DNA from: an uncultured Alphaproteobacteria bacterium | GTDB lineage: Bacteria; Pseudomonadota; Alphaproteobacteria; HIMB59; GCA-002718135 | Direction: 5' to 3' | NCBI GenBank assembly: GCA_902567855.1 | Contig: CACFOQ010000007.1 | Location: 1 to 64,000 of the forward strand | DNA length: 64,000 nt | Shown here: one piece after another, positions 13,585 to 58,478 of the stretch | Position numbering within the stretch: position 1 is the first letter of the stretch | How the letters are laid out: each line of letters opens with the position of its first letter | The notes under the pieces: model-generated | The model's input: the letters and a program-made list of their open reading frames with translations, nothing else | Told to the model about the DNA's origin: nothing | Databases searched by the model: none | Program-made: the position numbers and the translations under genes

Positions 13585-14622
13585 TTATGCTTTAAGTTTC
13601 CAGTTTAATTCTTTTCCACCCATAAAATTTTTTATTTTAATTTCTTGATGAATTGTATATTCAGGTACAGTCCATCTTTCCTCTATTAATTCAATTTGAT
13701 CTGCATTTACTGGAAGTTTATAAAATTTAGGTCCATTTATTGAACAAAATTTTTCTAAATTATCTAGAGATTTTTCTTCATCAAATATTGATGCATAAAT
13801 TTCAATAGAACATGGTGCAGAAAAAATTCCAGGTTTAGATTTAAGATTTGGAACCTTAAATTCTATTGGATGAGGCGCTGAATCAGTCCCTAAAAAAAAC
13901 TTTTTATTTCCAGATGTAGCAAAATTTCTTAATGCAATTAAATCTTCTTCATTTTTTACAACAGGCATGCAAAAATGATGAGGATTTATAGATTTATCCA
14001 AAAATACATCTTTTTTTGTAAGCATCATGTGATGAGGAGTTATAGTCCCTGCTATATTTGGACTATAATTTACATACTCAGCACCATATTTAGATGAAAC
14101 ATGCTCTAAAACTATTCTTAAGTTAGGAAATGTTTTTCTTATAAGAGATAATTCTTGGTCAATATAGTATTTTTCTCTATCAAAAATATCAATTTCACTG
14201 TCCACTTTCTCTCCATGTATTAATAAAATTTTATCTTTTTTTTCTAATATTTCTAAAGCTGGATAAATTTTTTCAGTACTTGATATTCCATATTTTGAAT
14301 TTGTTGTAGCTTCATTAGGATATAGCTTAGCTCCTATAAATATATTCTCATCAAGACCTTTGCTAAAATCTATTAAGTCTAAATCTTCAGTTAAATAACA
14401 TGGCAATAAAGGAGAAAAGTTATTATTTGAAAGTAAATTAATCTTTTTTATATAATCAATGCCTTTTAAAGTAGTTGTAATAGGATCATTTAAATTAGGC
14501 ATGACAATACATCTTTGATTTACTCTTGTAGAATGATTAATAACAGCTTTTAATAAGTTGCCTTCTCTTAAATGAACATGCCAATCATCCGGTCTAGTAA
14601 TTTTCAAGGACTTAAAGGTCAT
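13585..14622 (-). CDS. pyrC: dihydroorotase, class II homodimeric
   Basis: Cyclises carbamoyl aspartate to dihydroorotate in pyrimidine synthesis. The 345 residues match E. coli PyrC. The zinc His pair is in DDWHVHLRE; the carboxylated Lys is in GAKLYPNEATT; further His ligands are in LIHGE and LEHVSS; the catalytic Asp is in FLGTDSAPH. The ATG overlaps the stop of the upstream glycosyltransferase (ATGA), so the two are translationally coupled. Confidence 0.96.
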   Translation of the reverse strand: MTFKSLKITRPDDWHVHLREGNLLKAVINHSTRVNQRCIVMPNLNDPITTTLKGIDYIKKINLLSNNNFSPLLPCYLTEDLDLIDFSKGLDENIFIGAKLYPNEATTNSKYGISSTEKIYPALEILEKKDKILLIHGEKVDSEIDIFDREKYYIDQELSLIRKTFPNLRIVLEHVSSKYGAEYVNYSPNIAGTITPHHMMLTKKDVFLDKSINPHHFCMPVVKNEEDLIALRNFATSGNKKFFLGTDSAPHPIEFKVPNLKSKPGIFSAPCSIEIYASIFDEEKSLDNLEKFCSINGPKFYKLPVNADQIELIEERWTVPEYTIHQEIKIKNFMGGKELNWKLKA

Positions 14623-46721: not shown

Positions 46722-47330
46722 ATGAAAAAAATTTGTATTATATTTGGACATCATAATTCTAAAGATTCTTTTAACGCTGCAATTAGAGACACATTTATAG
46801 GTGAGGCTGAAAAATGTGGTCATCATATAGATTTAATAAATTTATTTGAAGAAAAAGAGCAGCTACCTTTTTACAATTCTAATGTTAATCCACCTCCTAA
46901 TATAGTTTTGGAATATAGAAAAAGATTAGAAGATGCTGATATTATGTTTTTAATAGGCTCTTGTCATAATTTAAGACTCAATGCAATTTTGGAAAATTGG
47001 ATAGATTGGGTTCTTCATCCTAAATGGTTCTTTACTTATAGATCAATAATCCCTGAAAGTAAGTTTTTTAAAAATTATGGATTTCCAGTACCTGGAGCAA
47101 TGAAAGGCAAACTTGGAATAGTTTCAATTACTTATGGCGGTCCTATGATCACTTATTTTAATTTTTCTCTTTTTGATAATATTCCTTATAGAAGAATCAA
47201 GAAATCAGTTTTTCAATTAGGTGGATTAAAAACCAAATACATAAGATTTTATTCAGTTTTGCCTACAATGAAAAAAAAAGAATTTGAACAACATATGAAA
47301 AAAGTTAAAAAGTTAGCAAAAAATTTATAA
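46722..47330 (+). CDS. flavodoxin-fold NAD(P)H:quinone reductase-like protein
   Basis: A 202-residue protein of the Flavodoxin_2/NQO-MdaB type. CIIFGHHNSKDSFNAAIRDTFI is the FMN/FAD phosphate-binding start; ADIMFLIGSCHNLRLNAILENWIDWVL and GKLGIVSITYGGP follow the fold. It may be a two-electron quinone reductase or a general flavin reductase; the acceptor is not predictable. It sits alone between the livK terminator and the MATE gene on the same strand. Confidence 0.78.
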   Translation: MKKICIIFGHHNSKDSFNAAIRDTFIGEAEKCGHHIDLINLFEEKEQLPFYNSNVNPPPNIVLEYRKRLEDADIMFLIGSCHNLRLNAILENWIDWVLHPKWFFTYRSIIPESKFFKNYGFPVPGAMKGKLGIVSITYGGPMITYFNFSLFDNIPYRRIKKSVFQLGGLKTKYIRFYSVLPTMKKKEFEQHMKKVKKLAKNL

Positions 47331-47388: not shown

Positions 47389-48702
47389 ATGCCTTCGAAA
47401 TCATCCATTACAAATCTTTTATATTTATCAATACCAATTTTTTTTGCCAATCTTGCCTTACCTTTAGTTGCTATTGTTGATACGGGGTTAATGGGCAATC
47501 AAGATAATGCAAGCTATCTCACTGCAACAAGTATTGCTTCTAGTTTGTTCTCTATGATTTTTTTGAGTTTTGGATTTTTACGAATGGGTACAGTAGGAAT
47601 GGTGGCTCAGGCCTATGGATCAAACCAATATAATGAAATAATAGATTTAGTTTTTAGGAATATTACTTTTGTAATTGTTATATCATTACTTTTAATTTGC
47701 TTTCAGCATTTCATTTTTAATTTGGGTTTACAAATCTTTGATTTATCAAATGATACAGAAAAATATTTTAATGATTATTTTTATATAAGAATTTATTCAT
47801 CTTTTGGTGAATTATCCATCTATGTCATAACAGGATTGTTTATTGGCCTGCAAAAAACAAAAACCTCAAGTTTAATGGTTGGCTTCTTTTCTATTACAAA
47901 TATAATTTTTAGTCTATTTTTTGTCTTATATTTAAAGTTGAATGTAACAGGTGTTGCCTTAGGTACATTAGTCTCATCAACCCTAACTTCTTTTATATTT
48001 TTAATTTATACTTTCTTTGAATTAAAAAAATTAACAATTATTAATTTTGATATCAAAAAAATTTTTAATATTAAAAAAATTAAAAATATATTTAATATTA
48101 ACTTCAATATTTTTATCAGGTCAGTTCTTCTAACTTTCTCTTTCTTATTTTTTACCTATTTAGGAAATACAATCAGTGAAGATATTGTTGCTGCTAATAC
48201 TATTTTAATTAATCTTATTTTTTTATCTGCCTTTGTTCTTGATGCCTATGCCTTTTCTACAGAAGGTATTGTTGGCTATTCAATAGGGTCAAAAAATATT
48301 ACATTATTAAGAAATGTTATTAAGAATTCTTTTATTTTAAGTGTTTTTACAAGTTTGTTAATTTCCCTATTATATTTTTCTAGTAAGAACTATTTTATTT
48401 CTTTGATGACTGATCTGCCTAATATTGAAATAATTAGTTTATCTTACTCCTATTGGGTTGTTATTATTCCTTTGATTTCTTCATTTTGTTATCAGTTTGA
48501 CGGAATTTTTGTAGGCGCATCTCAAACAAAAGAATTAAGAAATGCCATGATTATTTCTGTATGTATCTATATCATAAGTGCCGTATACCTAATCGGTAAT
48601 TTTGGTAATTTAGGATTATGGATATCATTCAGTATCTTCTTTATCGCAAGAGCATTAACCCTATTTGCTTATGTTGGGAGAATTTACAAAAAAATAGAAT
48701 AA
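47389..48702 (+). CDS. MATE-family efflux transporter
   Basis: A 437-residue, 12-helix antiporter of the DinF/NorM superfamily. ANLALPLVAIVDTGLMGNQD at the N-terminus has the family Asp in helix 1-2; FGFLRMGTVGMVAQAYG and AFVLDAYAFSTEGIVGYSIG mark the two repeats. It would export drugs or metabolites with a Na+ or H+ gradient. The DinF-like branch is favoured by these motifs. There are no signs of coupling to the sox genes. Confidence 0.9.
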   Translation: MPSKSSITNLLYLSIPIFFANLALPLVAIVDTGLMGNQDNASYLTATSIASSLFSMIFLSFGFLRMGTVGMVAQAYGSNQYNEIIDLVFRNITFVIVISLLLICFQHFIFNLGLQIFDLSNDTEKYFNDYFYIRIYSSFGELSIYVITGLFIGLQKTKTSSLMVGFFSITNIIFSLFFVLYLKLNVTGVALGTLVSSTLTSFIFLIYTFFELKKLTIINFDIKKIFNIKKIKNIFNINFNIFIRSVLLTFSFLFFTYLGNTISEDIVAANTILINLIFLSAFVLDAYAFSTEGIVGYSIGSKNITLLRNVIKNSFILSVFTSLLISLLYFSSKNYFISLMTDLPNIEIISLSYSYWVVIIPLISSFCYQFDGIFVGASQTKELRNAMIISVCIYIISAVYLIGNFGNLGLWISFSIFFIARALTLFAYVGRIYKKIE

Positions 48703-48786: not shown

Positions 48787-49125
48787 ATGAAAATATTATT
48801 ATTTTTGATCTTTTTACTAACATCTTTTTGCAAATTTGCATTTTCAGAAGAGCATTCAGATGAGCAACAAATTATTGAAATGGGCGATATAGAATATGGA
48901 CAATATTTAGGTGCTGAATGTGCATCATGTCATCAACAGACAGGAGCAAGTGAGGGTATTCCTGCAATTAATGGTATGGATGCCGAGGTTTTCGTTGCTT
49001 TAATGCTTGCTTACCGATCAAAAGAGATGGAGAATCCTGTTATGCAAATGATCGCTGGGAGACTTGATGATGAACAAATTGGCTCATTAGCTCTTTATTT
49101 TAGTCAATTAGAGCCACCAAAATGA
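48787..49125 (+). CDS. soxE: cytochrome c, probable partner of flavocytochrome c
   Basis: A 112-residue periplasmic c-type cytochrome with a signal peptide (MKILLFLIFLLTSFCKFAFS). Haem is bound at C45-A-S-C48-H49, and the sixth ligand is probably the Met in NPVMQMIAGRL. It ends YFSQLEPPK. Similar short cytochromes lie next to the flavoprotein as SoxE or FccA and accept its electrons. The flavoprotein gene starts 70 nt downstream. SoxE is assigned by context. Confidence 0.78.
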   Translation: MKILLFLIFLLTSFCKFAFSEEHSDEQQIIEMGDIEYGQYLGAECASCHQQTGASEGIPAINGMDAEVFVALMLAYRSKEMENPVMQMIAGRLDDEQIGSLALYFSQLEPPK

Positions 49126-49195
49126 TCATATTTTCATTTACTTAAGTCTAAAAGCTGATAACGTCTTCTCATTTTATTAATTTGGGGAGGACAAA

Positions 49196-50461
49196 ATGTC
49201 AAAAATTTCAAGACGTCTTTTTACAGGTCTTGCCGCTGCCTCAGTTGGAACACTTGCATTTCCATCTATTTCACTTGGTGCCGTACCAAGAGTTGTAGTT
49301 ATTGGAGGTGGTGCAGGTGGTGCAACCGCTGCAAGATATATTGCTAAAGATTCTGGTGGAGCAGTTGATGTTACACTAGTTGAGGCATCAAAGCGATATT
49401 ACACGTGCTTTTTTTCTAATATTTATCTAGGTGGATTTCGAAATTATGGTTCAATAGGGCATAATTACTATGGTCTATCTGTAAACCAAGGTGTTAATGT
49501 TGTTCATGAGTGGGCTGTTTCAGTTGATCCAGCTAATAGAATCGTCAAGTTAGGTTCTGGAAATACTCTTTATTATGATAAACTTGTTGTTTCACCGGGA
49601 ATTGATCTTAAATATGATTCTATCAATGGATATTCTGCTGCAGTCCAAGATAAAATGCCTCATGCATGGAAGTCTGGTACTCAGGTTCAGTTATTGAGAA
49701 ATCAGGTTATGAATATGAAACAAGGTGGGACTTTTGTAATGGTTCCTCCGCCTAATCCATATAGATGTCCTCCTGGACCATATGAAAGAGTGTCTATGAT
49801 CGCTCATCAATTTAAACAATCTAATCCTACAGCAAAAATTGTTATCTTAGATCCTAAACCTAAATTTTCGAAACAAGGTTTATTTGAAGCAGGATGGCAA
49901 AAGCATTATCCAGGAATGATAGAGTGGATTAGCTCTGAGGATCATGGTGGGATTAAAAATGTAAATGCTACTAAAATGGAGTTTGTAACAGATTTAGATA
50001 CATTTAAAGCTGACGCTGCATGTGTTGTTCCAGCTCAAAAAGCTGGTGCTATTGCAATGGCAGCAGGTGTTAATGATGGTGACTGGTGTCCTATCCAGCC
50101 TGCATCTATGCAATCTAAAGCAGATGAAAATATTTATGTTTTAGGTGATGCATCTATGGCTAAATCAATGCCTAAGTCTGGTTTTTCAGCCAACAGCCAA
50201 GCCAAAGTAGCAGCTAATCATATCAGAGGTGCTTTGACAGGAAGTAAAGTATTTGATGCTCGTTATTCAAATACCTGCTGGTCACTAATTGCACCCGATG
50301 ATGATGTTAAAGTTGGTGCTAGTTATGTTGCTGGTGCAGAACTTATTGATGTTGAAAGCAAATTTATTTCACAAGCTGATGACAGTAGTGAAACAAGAGC
50401 AGCTAACTATCAGGAATCTATAGATTGGTATAATGGTATAACTGCTGATATGTTTTCTTAA
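49196..50461 (+). CDS. soxF: flavocytochrome c sulfide dehydrogenase flavoprotein (SoxF/FccB)
   Basis: Oxidises sulfide or polysulfide in the periplasm and passes electrons to a cytochrome c. It is 421 residues, with a Tat signal (ISRRLFTGLAAASVGTLAF, Arg 6-7). The FAD motif GGGAGGA is at residues 37-43. The active-site cysteines match C191 in YRCPPGPYER and the Cys in SNTCWSL; C71 is in YYTCFFSN. A strong GGGGAGGA precedes ATG. A shared terminator separates it from the convergent soxB. Confidence 0.9.
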   Translation: MSKISRRLFTGLAAASVGTLAFPSISLGAVPRVVVIGGGAGGATAARYIAKDSGGAVDVTLVEASKRYYTCFFSNIYLGGFRNYGSIGHNYYGLSVNQGVNVVHEWAVSVDPANRIVKLGSGNTLYYDKLVVSPGIDLKYDSINGYSAAVQDKMPHAWKSGTQVQLLRNQVMNMKQGGTFVMVPPPNPYRCPPGPYERVSMIAHQFKQSNPTAKIVILDPKPKFSKQGLFEAGWQKHYPGMIEWISSEDHGGIKNVNATKMEFVTDLDTFKADAACVVPAQKAGAIAMAAGVNDGDWCPIQPASMQSKADENIYVLGDASMAKSMPKSGFSANSQAKVAANHIRGALTGSKVFDARYSNTCWSLIAPDDDVKVGASYVAGAELIDVESKFISQADDSSETRAANYQESIDWYNGITADMFS

Positions 50462-50484
50462 AACTGTTTAATTAATAAAAACAA

Positions 50485-50514
50485 ATAAAAGGCGGCTTTT
50501 AGCCGCCTTTTTTA
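50485..50514. terminator. bidirectional terminator between soxF and soxB
   Basis: AAAAGGCGGC / GCCGCCTTTT stem with the loop TTTTA and a T-run on both strands. It starts 24 nt after the soxF stop and overlaps the soxB stop at its other end, so it can end both convergent transcripts. Confidence 0.9.
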
Positions 50515-52197
50515 AATTCCTTTAATTGTTACTGGATTGTTATGTTTTGGTTTGATAATTTTTTCACCTGATACATAATCTTCTAATAGTTTATAAATAG
50601 GAGGCCCTTTAACTTCAGGATTTATTGATCCCCAGCCTCCAATAGTATATTTTTTTTGCGATTCAATTTTTTCACCATTAGATAATTTTAAATCACTTAT
50701 TCTATTCCCCATTGTTTCCTTAGGCTGACAAGTATATGTCATTCCTCCAACTCTAACCATATCACCACCTTGTTGGAAAAAAGGGTCAGGATTAAAAATA
50801 TTATCACATACGTCTTCTAAAAGATTTTTTATGGTCTCACCACTCATTTCAGTTCGATATACTTCTGGATAATTCATTGAAGTTTGAGAATAAATATCGT
50901 CAATAGTTATTTTTTGCCCCGGCAATAAAGTTGTTCCCCATCTGAAACCTGGGCTTAATGAAATTTCTGTATCTCTTTCCTGAATAATTGCGTCACAAAT
51001 CACACTATCCCAAGGTCCGCCAAAATTTCCTCTTCTGTACAGTAAGGTTTCAGCTTCCCCAACCACACGGTTACACTCTTTTTCATATGGTTCTCTAATT
51101 TTATCAATCAATCTTGTCATTTCTGGATCAGGTTGAATGACATCTGAAAAAATAGGTATTAAATTTGATGAGAAATCAACAACTTTGCCATTATCAACTT
51201 TTAAGTCAATCCTGCCTAAATATTTGCCATGAGACCCTGATGAAAGAAGTAAAGTATTTTTAATTTTAATTGCTCTTGGAATTGCATCATGAGTATGTCC
51301 AGTTAATATAACATCAACATTATCTAGAATAGACGCTAATTTCTGATCTACGTCGAACCCATTATGCGATAATAAAACCACTACTTCAGCACCATTCTTT
51401 TTTGCTTTACTTATATTTTTTTGAATGGTTTCTGGTCTTATTCCAAAGGACCAACCATCAACTAAGTAACTTGGATTAGCAATAGGCGTATATGGGAAGT
51501 GTTGTCCAATAACTGCAACTTTAACACCTCCTTTTTCAAAATAAGAGGTGCTTTCAAAGACAGGTTCTTCCCATTCAGTATCAAAAACATTTCCACCTAG
51601 AAATGGAAAATCTATTTTATCAATTAGTTCACTAAGACGTTCTTTGCCAAGCGTAAACTCCCAATGCCCTACCATAGCATCTGGTTTTAAGAGGTTCATT
51701 GCTTCTAACATATCCTCCCCTTGAGTTTTTAGAGAAGTGTATGAACCTTGCCATGTGTCACCACCATCTAATAAAAGTACTTTGTCCTCTCCTCTTTCTG
51801 CTCTGATATTTTTAATCAAGGTGGCTGTTCTATCTAAGCCTCCCAGCTTGCCGTACTCTCTGGCTAATGGTACATAATCCAGCATAGTATGTGCATAAGC
51901 GAGTGGTGTGTTGGGCTTAATACCAAAATGGTCTAAAAAAACTTTTCCAACAAGATGAGGAGGAATACCTTCAAATTTCCCAATACCAAAATTTTCTGAT
52001 GGCGGCCTAAAAAAAACAGGTTTAAGTTGGCCATGTATATCAGTTATGTGAAGTAAAGTAATTTGACCTTTTGAATCAAATTTCAAAAGATCATTTTCAG
52101 AAATTTCTTGTTTAGCAGCAACAGCACTCCAACTTTTGCCACCAATCAACATTGCTGTAATTGAAGCTAATTGAAGAAACTCTCGTCTTGATTGCAT
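50512..52197 (-). CDS. soxB: thiosulfohydrolase SoxB
   Basis: Hydrolyses the sulfonate from the SoxY-bound thiosulfate, releasing sulfate; a dimanganese enzyme of the 5'-nucleotidase family. The 561 residues carry a Tat signal (SRREFLQLASITAMLIGGKSW). Metal-binding motifs: LLHITDIHGQ at 48-57, LLDGGDTWQGS near 145, VGHWEFTLG near 178, VVLLSHNGFDVD and ILTGHTHDAIP. C-terminal SoxB marks SPGFRWGTTLLPGQ and PDPFFQQGGDMVRVGG are intact. It is the last gene of the sox transcript, 25 nt past soxD. Confidence 0.96.
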   Translation of the reverse strand: MQSRREFLQLASITAMLIGGKSWSAVAAKQEISENDLLKFDSKGQITLLHITDIHGQLKPVFFRPPSENFGIGKFEGIPPHLVGKVFLDHFGIKPNTPLAYAHTMLDYVPLAREYGKLGGLDRTATLIKNIRAERGEDKVLLLDGGDTWQGSYTSLKTQGEDMLEAMNLLKPDAMVGHWEFTLGKERLSELIDKIDFPFLGGNVFDTEWEEPVFESTSYFEKGGVKVAVIGQHFPYTPIANPSYLVDGWSFGIRPETIQKNISKAKKNGAEVVVLLSHNGFDVDQKLASILDNVDVILTGHTHDAIPRAIKIKNTLLLSSGSHGKYLGRIDLKVDNGKVVDFSSNLIPIFSDVIQPDPEMTRLIDKIREPYEKECNRVVGEAETLLYRRGNFGGPWDSVICDAIIQERDTEISLSPGFRWGTTLLPGQKITIDDIYSQTSMNYPEVYRTEMSGETIKNLLEDVCDNIFNPDPFFQQGGDMVRVGGMTYTCQPKETMGNRISDLKLSNGEKIESQKKYTIGGWGSINPEVKGPPIYKLLEDYVSGEKIIKPKHNNPVTIKGI

Positions 52198-52222
52198 TGT
52201 GTTGCCCTAAAAATTGCCTTTA

Positions 52223-52864
52223 TTAATTATCGTCTTCAGGAGTTACATCAATATCTCTAGCTTTTCCAATAATTTTTGTAGATACTTGACAATTACTCAT
52301 ACAAGGATCCCCTTGTGTATTCTTGATGTCAGGTCTTGGATCAGGCAATAAAAAACCATCTTTATTTGGCATCTCTATTTCACCAATATTTTTATTAGAT
52401 AAAACAAAATCTTCTTCGATTATGTCACTCATATATAAGAGATAGGCTACAATTTCATAAGTTTCATCATAAGATAGGGATTGCGCATCACCATATGGCA
52501 TTGCTCTGTAAATATAATCATATATTGTAGATGCATAGGGCCAGTAACTTCCAGTTGTTTTTTCTGGATCATGTGAAGCTAAACTGCCTTCACCTCCAAC
52601 AAGTGGGGGCCACCTATCTGCCCCTTCACCAAAATCACCATGGCATCCTGCACATCCTTCAGTGTATATTTCCTCTCCAAGTAAAGCAGTTCCACTTCCA
52701 ATTGGTGCGCCTAATCCATCAGGCCTGACATCAATATCCCATCCTGCAACTTCTTCTTTAGTAGCAATCTGCCCTAAATTGAATTTTCTCTCACTAGCAA
52801 AAGTTGTATTTACTAAAAATATTATTAATGAAAAGCTTAGTATGCATCTAACCAAGCCTGACAT
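52223..52864 (-). CDS. soxD: SoxD-like cytochrome c, short mono-haem form
   Basis: The cytochrome subunit of sulfane dehydrogenase SoxCD. It has a signal peptide (ends near TTFAS) and one haem site, GCAGCHGDFGEG, followed by AMPYGDAQSL with the likely Met ligand. Typical SoxD of Paracoccus has about 384 residues and two haems; this one has only 213 and no second CxxCH (CMSNC lacks the His), so the C-terminal haem domain is missing. I start at ATG 52864, inside the end of soxC (17-nt overlap). Confidence 0.88.
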   Translation of the reverse strand: MSGLVRCILSFSLIIFLVNTTFASERKFNLGQIATKEEVAGWDIDVRPDGLGAPIGSGTALLGEEIYTEGCAGCHGDFGEGADRWPPLVGGEGSLASHDPEKTTGSYWPYASTIYDYIYRAMPYGDAQSLSYDETYEIVAYLLYMSDIIEEDFVLSNKNIGEIEMPNKDGFLLPDPRPDIKNTQGDPCMSNCQVSTKIIGKARDIDVTPEDDN

Positions 52865-54137
52865 TATCAACCTTTCCGTTTTTAGAAACTAGCCAGGTTG
52901 CTATTGAATTATTATGATAAATTGAATTTACACCTCTGATTTTTTGAAGTTCACCAATAGTTGGTTGGACATAATTTGTCTCATCAATTGCTCTTGATTG
53001 TAATAATAATTCCTCATCATTCCATTCAAATGGTAAGGTAAATCTAGTTAATGATTTACTTAAAATGGGTGAATGAAGTTGAGCAGTTTTCCAATTCTTA
53101 CCACCATCAATAGAAACATCTACACGTTTAATTTTACCTCTACCTGACCAAGCAAGACCTCTTAATTGATGCACTCCTTTTGAAAGTATTGGTTTTTCGG
53201 GACTTGGAGAAGTTATAACCGACTTAGCATCCATAACCCATGTAAACATTCTAGCTTTTCCACTTGTTAACAAATCTGTATATTTAGAGGTTTCCTCTCT
53301 AGTCAAGTAAGGTTTGTCACCAAACTCTAATCTTCTAATCCATTTGACCCACATATTACCTTCCCAACCAGGAACTACGAGGCGCGCCGGATAACCTTGC
53401 TCAGGCCTTAATGCTTCTCCATTCATTGCCCATGCAATGATACAATCATCTAAAATTTTTTCTATGGGAATAGAACGTGTCATTCCTGATGAATCACTTC
53501 CTTCAGCTAAAACCCACTTTGCTTTATCTTTTAACCCTGTCTCTAAAAGAAGGTCTGATAATTTTACACCTGTGTATTGAACATTATGAACCATCCCAAA
53601 TGTGTATTGGCAGCCATTTAATTGAGATCCTTTCCATTCCATACCACCATTTGCAGCACACTCAAGAAAGTAAAATTTATTTGTTTGAGGAAAGCGTTTT
53701 AAGTCATCAAGAGTAAATATCATTTCTCGATCTACCAAACCATTAATCATCAATCTAAAGTCTTGTGGATTAATAACTGCAACACCTCCATGATGTCTTT
53801 CAAAGCATAGGCCATTAGGTGTTACAAATCCTTCAAGATCTTGTAATGGAGTAAAATTGACTGAAGATTCAGCACTTGCTGTAAGCCACTCAACATTTCT
53901 TCTGATGACATGTCCTTCAAACTCAGAAGGCATACCGTAAGGATTTACATCAACTCCATCTCCAAGGTATTGTGTCCACTCCGGAAGGTTGGGTGGTAAG
54001 TTTTCAGGATTTGCCTCTTGTGACAAAAGGTTTTTTGAAGCCAATGAAATCGCTCCAATACTTGAAGCACCAATTAATAACTTTCTGCGATTAATTTTTT
54101 TAGAGTTAGACACTTCATTTTTTTTATTTTTTTTCAT
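52848..54137 (-). CDS. soxC: sulfane dehydrogenase SoxC, molybdenum subunit
   Basis: Oxidises the sulfane sulfur bound to SoxY, using a Mo-molybdopterin centre of the sulfite oxidase fold. It is 429 residues, with a Tat signal (NRRKLLIGASSIGAISLAS). The Mo-ligating Cys160 is in FLECAANGGMEWKG. C-terminal dimerisation domain: GVHQLRGLAWSGRGKIKRV and GGKNWKTAQL. SoxC with SoxD here argues for complete oxidation instead of sulfur-globule storage. It is 2 nt after soxZ. Confidence 0.94.
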   Translation of the reverse strand: MKKNKKNEVSNSKKINRRKLLIGASSIGAISLASKNLLSQEANPENLPPNLPEWTQYLGDGVDVNPYGMPSEFEGHVIRRNVEWLTASAESSVNFTPLQDLEGFVTPNGLCFERHHGGVAVINPQDFRLMINGLVDREMIFTLDDLKRFPQTNKFYFLECAANGGMEWKGSQLNGCQYTFGMVHNVQYTGVKLSDLLLETGLKDKAKWVLAEGSDSSGMTRSIPIEKILDDCIIAWAMNGEALRPEQGYPARLVVPGWEGNMWVKWIRRLEFGDKPYLTREETSKYTDLLTSGKARMFTWVMDAKSVITSPSPEKPILSKGVHQLRGLAWSGRGKIKRVDVSIDGGKNWKTAQLHSPILSKSLTRFTLPFEWNDEELLLQSRAIDETNYVQPTIGELQKIRGVNSIYHNNSIATWLVSKNGKVDNVRLG

Positions 54138-54139
54138 TA

Positions 54140-54466
54140 TTAAGAAACAGTCATTTCTTTTGAAATATAATATTTTTCCCCGTTATCGTCTATCCATTCA
54201 AAATCAAATGTACCACTTTCTTTAACTTTATATTGAAAAACAATAAATGGATTAGTTGATATAGACGGCTCAAGATCCATCTGGAAAACCTCTTTTCCAT
54301 TAAATTTAGCACTAAAAGAATTAATTATCTGTCTTGGTATTATTTGACCATTATTATCTTTCATTCTTCCACTATGCATGGGGTGTCTAATTAAAGTTTT
54401 AATTTCGATAATCTCATCAATAGAGACTTCCTTAGGTACTTTTACTCTTGGTTTAATTGAAGACAT
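54140..54466 (-). CDS. soxZ: sulfur-carrier complex subunit SoxZ
   Basis: Partner of SoxY in the SoxYZ carrier of the periplasmic sulfur cycle. It is 108 residues, an all-beta protein without its own signal peptide, as expected, since it is carried with SoxY by Tat. Family marks: KVPKEVSIDEIIEIKTLIRHPMHSGRM (conserved HPMxxG) and the central FNGKEVFQMDLEPSISTNPF, with the C-terminal FEWIDDNGE. AGGAGT precedes the ATG. Next to soxY (14 nt). Confidence 0.95.
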   Translation of the reverse strand: MSSIKPRVKVPKEVSIDEIIEIKTLIRHPMHSGRMKDNNGQIIPRQIINSFSAKFNGKEVFQMDLEPSISTNPFIVFQYKVKESGTFDFEWIDDNGEKYYISKEMTVS

Positions 54467-54480
54467 AATTACTCCTTATA

Positions 54481-54945
54481 TTATCCGCCACATCCGCCAA
54501 TTGTGACTTTTACTTTTGCGTTGGTCATGAGAAATTGACCATTATTATTTTCAGCTAATAAATAAACATTTTGCGTTTTTGATAATCGCATTCTTGTTGC
54601 TGCAGAACATGATCCCATTTCTGGTGTGAAAGAGAATTTCGCAACATTTGGTGAAGGGTTTCCGTCTGCTAAAATATAAACAGTTTTAATATGATCAGTC
54701 TCAGTCATAGGGCTTTCTATTTCAAAAGTAACTTTTACCTGATTACCATTTTCTGCAATTTCTGGTAAGTCAAAATAAATGTCACTTTCAGTTGCTCCCA
54801 ATCCCTTTGTAATTTCATTTATTCTATCAAAGGCTTGGCTAGATTGAGCAAATGATATTGAAGGAAAAATTGCTGTCCCTGTAAAGCCTGCAATAAGTAG
54901 CAAAGCATTTCTTCTTGAAATTTTTCTTAATTTTTTTAACTTCAT
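54481..54945 (-). CDS. soxY: sulfur-carrier protein SoxY
   Basis: Carries sulfur intermediates on a C-terminal Cys. It is 154 residues with a Tat signal (SRRNALLLIAGFTGTAIF) and the defining C-terminal motif GGCGG (Cys152). The body is the usual immunoglobulin-like fold (KVTFEIESPMTETDHIKTV, PEMGSCSAATRMRL). A strong GAGGAG sits before the ATG. It heads the SoxYZCDB group, downstream of the SoxS-like gene across a 78-nt gap that may hold its own promoter. Confidence 0.95.
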   Translation of the reverse strand: MKLKKLRKISRRNALLLIAGFTGTAIFPSISFAQSSQAFDRINEITKGLGATESDIYFDLPEIAENGNQVKVTFEIESPMTETDHIKTVYILADGNPSPNVAKFSFTPEMGSCSAATRMRLSKTQNVYLLAENNNGQFLMTNAKVKVTIGGCGG

Positions 54946-55023
54946 TTATACTCTCCTCGTCATAAAGAACGTAAATATACAATATATTATTTAATAATGA
55001 ATTTATTCAAATCAATCAAATAC

Positions 55024-55386
55024 TTAATCAAGACCAAGAATTTCATCCACTTGCCACCAAAACATTTCTGCACTTGAATATCCTATAATTCGTCCAATTT
55101 CTTCTTTTTCCTTAAAAAAAACAAATGTTGGAGTAATTTTTGTTTCATAATTGTCTGAATCATTACTTAATGAGTATTTATCAAGCTCAATTCTTTCCAA
55201 AGGGAAGCTTTTGGCAATATCAGTCTTAGGGTAAATTTCACCAATTTCTTTTTCCCAAATTTGACAGTAAACACAATAATCAGCAGTTATCATCAGAAGT
55301 TTATTTTCAGCAAATGATGATTTTAATGGTAATAAAAAAAATACTATTAAAAGCAGCAATAGATCTCTTTTTTTTGATTTAAGCAT
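55024..55386 (-). CDS. soxS: periplasmic thioredoxin-like protein, SoxS-like
   Basis: A 120-residue protein with an N-terminal export signal (DLLLLLIVFFLLPLKSSFA) and the redox motif C38-V-Y-C41 in TADYCVYCQIW. ITPTFVFFKEKEEIGRI is the cis-Pro loop. In Paracoccus, SoxS is a periplasmic thiol-disulfide protein that keeps SoxY active; gene order and fold agree. It begins 2 nt after livM ends, so its translation is linked to the liv genes. Confidence 0.85.
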   Translation of the reverse strand: MLKSKKRDLLLLLIVFFLLPLKSSFAENKLLMITADYCVYCQIWEKEIGEIYPKTDIAKSFPLERIELDKYSLSNDSDNYETKITPTFVFFKEKEEIGRIIGYSSAEMFWWQVDEILGLD

Positions 55387-55388
55387 AT

Positions 55389-56759
55389 TTACGAATGCCT
55401 GACTTTCTCTGGAATAATTCCTTTAGGTCGGTATCGTAATATTAGGAGTAAAACCATCCCCATCAATAAATACCTAAAATATGGAACGCTATCTAATAAA
55501 TGTAAACGAATGGCATTTTGAGGGTCTAATCCTGAAGTAAATAAATTAATTAAAAATGTTGTCAAAGGTGCTACTTCGATCCACGCAAACCAAATGACAA
55601 ATCCTCCAAAGATAGCCCCTAGATTATTCCCACTTCCTCCAACTATTACCATGATCCAAATAATAAATGTAAAACGAAGTGGTCTATAACTAGAAGGTGT
55701 GAACAAGCCATCTAACGTTACAAGCATCGCCCCTGCTACACCAACTATCGCTGCCCCTATGACAAAAATGATTAAGTGTTGCTTCACAATATCTTTTCCC
55801 ATCGCATTTGCAGAAACTTCATTATCACGAATAGCGCGCATCATGCGACCCCAGGGAGAAATTTGTGCTTTATTGGCAAAATAATAAATTACAATCATGA
55901 CAGTAAAAAATAATATCGTATAATTCAGCTTCACAAATAAACTGGAACTATCAATTATTAATTTATTCAGTATTTCTTGTTTTTGATCAGCATCTATTAT
56001 TTGATTAAGTTTTGATGAGTTAAACCACATAACCATATTAATAAACCAATCAGAGGTTTGTAAATTAATTTCATAAGGCACAGGTCTTTTAAGACCAATC
56101 ACGTTTTTAACTCCTCTGGATAACCACTCTTCATGTTTGAGAACACTGACAACAATCTCGGAGATACCAAGTGTAACAATTGCTAAATAATCTGAGCGTA
56201 ATCCAAGGGCTACTTTTCCAATAACAAAAGCAACGCCCCCAGCAAAGAGACCTCCTACTACCCAGGAAAAGATGATAGGTAAATTAGCACCACCCAAAAA
56301 TCCTGCTAAAGCTGGATCAACTTCTTCAATTCTATCTGTTGCATTAAGGAAAAAATATCTAATGATAATTAAACCAAAGAAAATTACTAAACCATTTAAC
56401 CAATATTTATGGGATTTTTTTTCTACTAATTTGGTAATAAAATATACAACTGTTACTAATGCTACTAATAAAATAAAACTAATTCCGAGCCCTGATCCAC
56501 CAACGTGCCATGCTTCTTTTACAGGAGGATACGATACTAATACTGCTGCTAAACCTCCCATCGCTAAAAATCCCATCACACCAAAATTAATGACACCCGC
56601 ATATCCCCATGAAATATTAACACCCATGGTCATGATAGCAGATATGATGCACATATTCAGAATAACTAAACTAACTGACCATCCTTGAATAAAACCTACT
56701 AAAATAAATAATAACACCATGATAGATATTGCTGTCCACTCGTATTTATCAAATTTCAT
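55389..56759 (-). CDS. livM: Liv-type ABC transporter permease (LivM-like)
   Basis: Second membrane subunit of the Liv-type importer. It is 456 residues, longer than typical LivM (300-425), with about ten hydrophobic segments and a periplasmic-side loop (residues ~210-275) carrying SRGVKNVIGLKRPV, seen in LivM relatives. The EAA-like loop RMMRAIRDNEVSANAMGKD docks the ATPase. VINFGVMGFLAMGG and the C-terminal LRYRPKGIIPEKV are family marks. Its ATG overlaps the end of livH by one base. Confidence 0.9.
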   Translation of the reverse strand: MKFDKYEWTAISIMVLLFILVGFIQGWSVSLVILNMCIISAIMTMGVNISWGYAGVINFGVMGFLAMGGLAAVLVSYPPVKEAWHVGGSGLGISFILLVALVTVVYFITKLVEKKSHKYWLNGLVIFFGLIIIRYFFLNATDRIEEVDPALAGFLGGANLPIIFSWVVGGLFAGGVAFVIGKVALGLRSDYLAIVTLGISEIVVSVLKHEEWLSRGVKNVIGLKRPVPYEINLQTSDWFINMVMWFNSSKLNQIIDADQKQEILNKLIIDSSSLFVKLNYTILFFTVMIVIYYFANKAQISPWGRMMRAIRDNEVSANAMGKDIVKQHLIIFVIGAAIVGVAGAMLVTLDGLFTPSSYRPLRFTFIIWIMVIVGGSGNNLGAIFGGFVIWFAWIEVAPLTTFLINLFTSGLDPQNAIRLHLLDSVPYFRYLLMGMVLLLILRYRPKGIIPEKVRHS

Positions 56760-57772
56760 TATAATACCTTTCCTCTAAAGATACCGGAGGGTCTGATTAA
56801 AAGCACTATCACAAGAATAGTAAAAGAGACGGCAAATTTATAATCAGTAGAGAGTAATTGCACTAGACTCGATGGCTCTAAGTTTTCTGGTAATAAATAC
56901 TTAAAGAATTTTTTATACGCGTAGGTGACCATGATTTCTGAAAAGGCAATCACATATCCACCAACAACTGCTCCAAAAGGACTTCCTATACCTCCTACAA
57001 TTGCAGAAGCAAATATAGGTAATACAAGATTCAAATAAATGATGGGCTGATAACTTTTATCCAAGCCGTATAATGTTCCTGCGACACAAGCTAATGTTCC
57101 CACAATTAACCACGTAATAAATACTACGCGGTCAGGATTGATGCCTGATAATAGTGCTAAATCTTCATTATCTGAAAAAGCACGCATTGATTTTCCTGTC
57201 TTCGTTTTTTGTAAAAACCAAAAAGTAAAAGTTAATAGCGCGATAGTAATAAGAATAGTAATAACTTGAGAAGATTTTAAGGCTAGCCCCTCATTTAATC
57301 CTGTTATTTCTTTAAACTGTCTTGCTTTAATTATAAATTTTTGACCATCTAAAAACTTCTTATCACCAGGACCAATTATGATTCTTACTATGGCATTAAT
57401 GACGAACATAACGCCAATCGAAACCATAGCCAATACAACGGGAACACTCTTTTGTTTTCGGTAATATTTAAAAACAAATTTATCGGAGAGTAAACCGAGA
57501 ACAATTGTAGCTAAAATTCCAAATGGTAATGCAATTAGTGCTGTAGGAAGAATACCTAAACCAATATTTTGTGATTGAAAAAACCATGTAAATAATATTG
57601 TAATCATGGCACCAAATGACATGAGTTCACCGTGCGCAAAGTTAGCAAATCTTAATATGGCATAAACAAATGTAACACCTAATGCACCTAATGCTAATTG
57701 AGAGCCATAAGACAACCCTGGTACAATAACAAAATTAAGGAGAACAACAATAGAATTAATAAAATCAACCAT
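56759..57772 (-). CDS. livH: Liv-type ABC transporter permease (LivH-like)
   Basis: First membrane subunit, 337 residues, about nine helices. FANFAHGELMSFGAM at residue 42 and MRAFSDNEDLALLSGINPDRVVF (EAA-like loop) are typical of LivH. C-terminal LIRPSGIFRGKVL is the family end. It follows livF by one base and shares a base with livM. As with the rest of the system, the substrate is not fixed by sequence. Confidence 0.93.
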   Translation of the reverse strand: MVDFINSIVVLLNFVIVPGLSYGSQLALGALGVTFVYAILRFANFAHGELMSFGAMITILFTWFFQSQNIGLGILPTALIALPFGILATIVLGLLSDKFVFKYYRKQKSVPVVLAMVSIGVMFVINAIVRIIIGPGDKKFLDGQKFIIKARQFKEITGLNEGLALKSSQVITILITIALLTFTFWFLQKTKTGKSMRAFSDNEDLALLSGINPDRVVFITWLIVGTLACVAGTLYGLDKSYQPIIYLNLVLPIFASAIVGGIGSPFGAVVGGYVIAFSEIMVTYAYKKFFKYLLPENLEPSSLVQLLSTDYKFAVSFTILVIVLLIRPSGIFRGKVL

Positions 57773-57773
57773 T

Positions 57774-58478
57774 TTAACCTCCTAAAAAAGATTTTCTTAC
57801 TTCAGGATTATTTAGTAAATCTTGCCCACTGCCTTCTCTACTGTGTTTTCCATTAACTAATACGTAACCTCTATCAGCAATATTAAGAGCTTGTTTTGCA
57901 TTTTGTTCAACCATTAAAATTCCAACACCTGTTTTACCTACTTCTATAATTCGTGCAAAAAGCTCATCCATCACAATAGGTGATACACCAGCAGTTGGCT
58001 CATCTAGCATTAAAATTTTTGGTTTTGTCATTAAGGCTCTTCCAAAAGCAACTTGTTGACGTTGACCTCCTGATAATTCACCTGCATTCTGATTTCTTTT
58101 TTCTTTTAGTATGGGAAAAAGATTGTAAATATCTTCAATGGTATGTTTAATATCATCAGATCTTATAAATCCACCCATCTCTAAATTTTCTTCTACAGTC
58201 ATCCCTGTAAAAACATTGTTCGTCTGCGGAACAAAAGCTATTCCTAAATTAACACGGTCTTGAGGAAGCATCAAAGTTATATCATCTTTTGAAAAACTCA
58301 CTGATCCATCCGTTAATTTTAACATTCCTAATAAGGCTTTCATCGCTGTAGATTTTCCTGCTCCATTAGGGCCAACTATAACTACTATCTCACCTTCATT
58401 GACAAAAAGGTTAAGATTCTTAATTATATCAACGCCTCCATAGCCAGCTGTTATATTGTTTGCTTTTAAACTAATCAT
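57774..58478 (-). CDS. livF: Liv-type ABC transporter ATPase (LivF-like)
   Basis: A 234-residue ATPase. Walker A is GPNGAGKSTAMK, the signature LSGGQRQQVAFG and Walker B ILMLDEPTAGVSP; the switch His is Gln (MVEQNAKQAL), as is common in LivF. It overlaps livG by 8 nt at its start and lies one base before livH. It pairs with LivG as a heterodimeric motor. Confidence 0.95.
   Translation of the reverse strand: MISLKANNITAGYGGVDIIKNLNLFVNEGEIVVIVGPNGAGKSTAMKALLGMLKLTDGSVSFSKDDITLMLPQDRVNLGIAFVPQTNNVFTGMTVEENLEMGGFIRSDDIKHTIEDIYNLFPILKEKRNQNAGELSGGQRQQVAFGRALMTKPKILMLDEPTAGVSPIVMDELFARIIEVGKTGVGILMVEQNAKQALNIADRGYVLVNGKHSREGSGQDLLNNPEVRKSFLGG

Follow-up and report, generated by a model that had tools for sequence, protein, structure and literature searches.

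The window, a stretch of 64,000 nucleotides from an uncultured alphaproteobacterium, carries a cluster of sox genes from which soxXA is missing, a true absence that extends across its lineage. Canonically, thiosulfate is joined to SoxY by SoxXA in a two-electron oxidation, and SoxCD takes six more electrons; soxB is widely taken as a marker of thiosulfate oxidation. The inference from soxB to thiosulfate is probably wrong in the clade of open-ocean bacteria that lacks SoxXA, with sulfide as the likely substrate. The reading that we favor, and consider rather likely, is a sulfide-fed Sox pathway that operates without SoxXA and in which SoxEF takes its place as the two-electron entry. Loci, genomes and proteins without and with SoxXA are referred to as XA-less and XA+ in the following.

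The window corresponds to contig C7 of a 1.35-Mb genome in 36 contigs (G000, 81.9% complete). Its GC content is 29%, and a value of 29.1% has been given for the family GCA002718135 of the HIMB59 order (PMC10734472); the lineage appears to be of the HIMB59/AEGEAN-169 type. The eight-gene sox set claimed in the original prediction is present at 48787-55386, as judged from open reading frames and NCBIfam/Pfam matches, with soxE-like and soxF on the forward strand and soxB, soxD, soxC, soxZ, soxY and soxS on the reverse strand, convergent with soxF. As had also been claimed, unrelated genes lie on both flanks, namely a MATE transporter (47389-48702) and, at the opposite end from 55389 onward, an ABC operon for branched-chain amino acids. 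The soxE-like gene (48787-49125, forward) encodes a monoheme c-type cytochrome of 112 amino acids, the presumed cytochrome subunit of flavocytochrome c sulfide dehydrogenase (FCSD); the protein matches no Pfam or NCBIfam family model, and it is named SoxE-like on the basis of its one CXXCH motif, an N-terminus resembling a signal peptide, and a location next to soxF that is constant among all relatives. The adjacent soxF (49196-50461, forward) encodes the FCSD flavoprotein (Pfam FCSD_central, 2.5e-45; FCSD-flav_bind). The gap between the convergent soxF and soxB holds a bidirectional terminator-like hairpin, AAAAGGCGGCTAAAAGCCGCCTTTT (50487-50511, without strand), which is kept across the XA-less clade with a varying stem sequence.

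On the reverse strand, the thiosulfohydrolase gene soxB (50512-52197) scores 807 bits against TIGR04486 (cut-off 550), and its product matches 2wdc. Sulfane dehydrogenase is represented by soxD (52223-52870, reverse), encoding the monoheme cytochrome c subunit (Pfam Cytochrom_C/Cytochrome_CBB3, with position and CXXCH conserved), and by soxC (52848-54137, reverse), encoding the molybdoprotein subunit, which scores 617 bits against TIGR04555 (cut-off 420), contains the cysteine in the motif ECAANGG, and matches 2xts. The carrier is encoded by soxZ (54140-54466, reverse; TIGR04490, 103 bits, cut-off 76) and soxY (54481-54945, reverse; TIGR04488, 128 bits, cut-off 125); SoxY has the C-terminal GGCGG arm with Cys152 as well as an extra cysteine, Cys113, and its AlphaFold model matches the SoxY of 2oxg. 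The set is completed by a soxS-like gene for a periplasmic thioredoxin with the motif CVYC (55024-55386, reverse; Pfam Thioredoxin_2). A consensus promoter scan gave no excess over shuffled sequences.

The absence of soxXA from the window was correctly recognized in the original prediction, which had left room for the pair elsewhere in the genome; searches of the window's own genome and of the family genomes with SoxA, SoxX and SoxA/TsdA profiles did not bear this out. SoxA was found neither in the own genome nor in any of 110 family genomes, 15 of which have SoxB (one of these cut by a contig end). The 15 sox-carrying family genomes gave no credible match to SoxX, with three controls clearly positive, and no SoxA/TsdA-type cytochrome domain was detected in them or in the own genome, which also rules out a TsdA-type replacement of SoxXA. 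In a class-wide control, SoxA scored above the cut-off in 24 of the 27 genomes with SoxB above the cut-off, the three others being the window's own genome, G176, and G341. Likewise, a genome-wide search of the 36 genomes behind related loci found SoxA above the cut-off missing from 33, and the three positives are one XA+ SAR116 genome (Puniceispirillum) and two outside controls. It could be argued that SoxXA is present elsewhere and was missed through genome gaps or extreme divergence, since the family genomes are drafts, many of them well under 90% complete, and a highly divergent form could escape the SoxA profile. However, SoxA is lacking in all of the sox-bearing family genomes and in the 33 related genomes alike, the broader SoxA/TsdA and SoxX profiles find none either, the SoxA proteins of close SAR116 relatives score 235-244 bits, and the X and A slots of the operon are empty, so that this explanation is highly improbable. 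The chance that soxA is missing from all 15 sox-carrying genomes through incompleteness is about 4e-10, calculated as the product of their incompleteness under the assumption of independence.

The genes that remain are maintained under purifying selection, and every active-site motif that was checked is intact. Linkage of soxF is seen in 52 of 53 XA-less loci; the remaining locus is truncated at a contig end. Alignment with 1fcd and 5n1t identifies Cys71 of SoxF as the FAD-linking position and Cys191 and Cys361 as the redox disulfide positions, and these three catalytic cysteines are invariant in the XA-less clade (52/52). The SoxE-like protein retains CXXCH in 50/50 XA-less homologues, the C-terminus of SoxY reads GGCGG in 47/47 XA-less sequences, and ECAANGG is kept in every full-length XA-less SoxC. 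Values of dN/dS over the cassette genes range from 0.02 to about 0.42, with those of soxB and soxC lowest (0.04-0.11). SoxY Ala122 to Ser (Ala in all 32 XA+ sequences, Ser in 44/46 XA-less ones), SoxZ Ala68 to Ser (Ala in all 32 XA+ sequences, Ser in 48/48 XA-less ones) and a few other substitutions were considered as signatures of XA loss, and all of them were set aside, as they represent one branch only and allow no inference.

The XA-less clusters nearest to that of the window occur in SAR116, in the HIMB59-type lineage, and in a few other marine Alphaproteobacteria. Where their flanks are complete, the gene order is S-Y-Z-C-D-B with F and E adjacent, and the operon of XA+ SAR116 reads S-X-Y-Z-A-(CcdA-like)-(thioredoxin)-C-D-(metallo-beta-lactamase)-B. 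In a tree of SoxB and SoxC, 51 XA-less loci, mainly from SAR116, form one well-supported clade, inside which the window's group is nested; its sister is a pair holding the XA+ Puniceispirillum, and the other row of this pair, L099, bears the label XA-less solely owing to a contig end upstream of soxC. Since the XA-less clade is sister to an XA+ pair and the window's group lies within it, the tree is most simply read as a single, ancient loss of X and A together with the SoxV/W-like and lactamase-like genes, after which the cassette would have reached the window's lineage by lateral spread, already without X and A. A second, distant XA-less cluster is found in G176, a GC-rich alphaproteobacterium with an estimated completeness of 100%; it is arranged as Y-Z-B-C-D-cytochrome-F (L140), with SoxF present and SoxA absent. 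Another genome of the class with an estimated completeness of 100%, G341, has an S-Y-Z-B cluster (L139) whose surroundings lack C, D, X, A, and F.

Within the window's family, the cassette moves as a unit. All 15 sox-bearing genomes share the eight genes and their order, except at contig ends, with identities to the window of mostly 82-99% (soxS, 76-92%), and soxS is linked in nearly all cassettes that are uncut by a contig end. Their neighborhoods differ: the cassette is flanked by MATE and liv genes in G000 and G106 and by urease genes in G063, lies in the groEL region in G036, G103, and G044, between DUF721 and mutY in G033, and at other sites elsewhere. An empty site is preserved in G035, in which DUF721 and mutY are about 50 bp apart and uninterrupted (L030:543-640). 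The cassette of G033 has an 86-bp direct repeat (94%) on both sides (L039:7086-7171 and 13861-13946); such repeats were seen in G033 only and not in the window, and are thus not taken as general insertion marks. Several further observations concern the neighbors of the cassette. The livM, livH, and livF genes beside it (window 55389-58478) are 66-85% identical to those of G106, with flanking genes at 95-99%, which looks like local replacement by recombination. A flavodoxin-fold oxidoreductase gene (window 46722-47330), 91% identical to one beside the G103 cassette, is not at the locus in G106, a closer relative than G103, and may have travelled with the cassette. A pseudoazurin gene lies about 35 bp upstream of soxS in L029, L032, L034-L038, L042, and L069, and about 29 bp before soxB in L097, L098, and L111. 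The product of this gene, which does not adjoin the cassette in the window, is perhaps an electron acceptor of XA-less clusters.

In the sulfide-fed pathway, SoxEF would oxidize periplasmic sulfide by two electrons, giving rise to a cysteine persulfide on SoxF or to a short polysulfide, and the sulfane sulfur would then pass, directly or via polysulfide, to Cys152 on the swinging arm of SoxY. SoxCD would take six electrons from the SoxY-bound sulfur to form an S-sulfonate, SoxB would hydrolyze the latter to release sulfate, and SoxS would keep the arm cysteine of SoxY reduced. The total of eight electrons would remain unchanged, and the substrate would shift from thiosulfate to sulfide. We infer every chemical step of this scheme, above all the transfer from SoxF to SoxY, from sequence. 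Loading of SoxYZ by SoxEF is suggested by the fixed linkage of SoxEF in XA-less loci, in conjunction with the report that the Sox system can draw electrons from persulfurated or polysulfurated SoxYZ (PMC5336275), and the presence of SoxF in the unrelated XA-less cluster of G176 lends support to SoxEF as the entry. The suggestion in the original prediction that SoxF might load the carrier from sulfide or polysulfide thus describes the best-supported route, given the linkage and the three invariant cysteines, and is retained here as a proposal.

Several lines of evidence weigh against the sulfide-fed pathway. SoxAX of Paracoccus is needed in vitro even for the oxidation of already persulfurated SoxYZ (PMC5336275), and with recombinant Paracoccus Sox proteins all components, SoxAX included, are needed for H2S degradation (PMC5371076). 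Omission of SoxXA should therefore block the pathway, unless the proteins of the XA-less clade differ. SoxEF is also no speciality of XA-less clusters: SoxF occurs in nine of ten SoxA-bearing SAR116 genomes, mostly unlinked, which rules out that SoxEF was newly gained to replace XA, and SoxEF is therefore better seen as making XA dispensable. Moreover, sulfide is very low in the surface ocean (PMC12262181). Its formation from methanethiol by methanethiol oxidase (SBP56) is rejected for this family, as the enzyme is found in none of the 110 family genomes, and sulfide must consequently be supplied externally or arise in a different reaction. Accordingly, of the two substrate shifts that had been envisaged at the outset, the one to sulfide stands as the best reading, as an inferred one, and the one to organic sulfur finds no support in this family.

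A more specific variant would have the persulfide of SoxF transferred directly to SoxY, so that SoxXA is not needed at all, and would assign a role to Cys113, which lies 39 residues before the arm cysteine Cys152 among varying neighbors: an internal disulfide of Cys113 could provide the leaving group needed to accept sulfide, which is otherwise missing from free SoxY. Cys113 is present in 47/47 XA-less SoxY sequences versus 1/23 XA+ ones. However, it is also found in 10/10 of the XA+ SAR116 SoxY sequences that were read and is missing in the independent XA-less G176, which rules out Cys113 as a consequence of XA loss; the residue is invariant across SAR116/HIMB59-type SoxY and is not at that place in the other XA+ SoxY proteins examined. 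Cys113 is best taken as a marker of lineage. We regard this variant as unlikely; if it is true, sulfur would enter the Sox cycle by a biochemically distinct route, and one that has been passed laterally between bacteria of the surface ocean.

Two further explanations depart from the sulfide-fed pathway more fundamentally. Thiosulfate might still be used if a periplasmic rhodanese moved its sulfane sulfur to SoxY and freed sulfite, in which case a sulfurtransferase and not SoxEF would replace SoxXA. A candidate, a single-domain rhodanese with a CRTGRR active-site loop and a signal-peptide-like N-terminus, is encoded in the own genome (G000:C5, L209:1081-1497) and in several sox-bearing relatives, and AG-422-K21 has a similar gene at a distance of about 1.4 kb from soxS. 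This route seems improbable to us, as the rhodanese gene lies apart from sox in all family genomes with flanks read, the sulfite would have to be handled, and the fixed linkage of SoxEF would be left without an account. Alternatively, the cluster could be a decaying or repurposed remnant that serves, for example, sulfite or sulfane detoxification and not the gain of energy from sulfide. The loss of a component thought essential, SoxXA, would fit such a remnant, as would that of the SoxV-like, SoxW-like, and metallo-beta-lactamase-like genes of XA+ SAR116 operons, but purifying selection on all retained genes, intact motifs, and the transfer and retention of the whole cassette as a unit make it a doubtful explanation. 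Detoxification of sulfide or sulfane is a possible function that overlaps with the sulfide-fed pathway.

The XA-less clade provides a natural test of the unexplained in vitro requirement for SoxAX with sulfane-loaded SoxYZ in Paracoccus. Given that selection maintains the remaining pathway in dozens of genomes that lack SoxXA, either this requirement is not universal, or it is met by SoxEF or a sulfurtransferase.

Compared to the canonical (Kelly-Friedrich) Sox system of Paracoccus pantotrophus, the window has homologues of SoxYZ, SoxB, SoxCD, SoxS, and SoxEF with conserved motifs, but no SoxXA and, at the locus, no SoxV or SoxW, and its SoxD and SoxE-like proteins are short and monoheme. SoxF of the window can be aligned over almost its whole length with FccB of FccAB (1fcd, 5n1t) and keeps the three key cysteines, whereas the candidate for the cytochrome partner, encoded next to it, is a short monoheme CXXCH protein outside the family models. 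Truncated Sox systems without SoxCD, as in the soxCD deletion of Cupriavidus (PMC9959259), are likewise partial systems with one module missing, but there the opposite module is gone, while the window keeps SoxCD and loses the entry enzyme. The closest counterpart was published in 2025 for SAR116 subclades II and III, which have soxCDBYZ and fccAB without soxAX, and for which sulfide was proposed as the source (PMC12262181). The cassette of the window belongs to this kind: soxCDBYZ and flavocytochrome c genes are present, soxAX is absent genome-wide, and SoxB and SoxC nest in the tree of that group. In contrast to the published cases, the window comes from another order, that of the HIMB59/AEGEAN-169 type, for which two papers on this lineage mention no sox genes in the main text (PMC10308909; PMC10734472); the cassette is patchy in its family (15/110) and sits at several chromosomal sites; and methanethiol oxidase, a proposed source of sulfide in SAR116, is absent from the window's family. 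The present analysis thus extends the SAR116 report to another order and adds a mobile cassette of patchy distribution, together with an empty site, a tree that points to one loss, a second, independent XA-less case, and the removal of methanethiol as a source of sulfide here.
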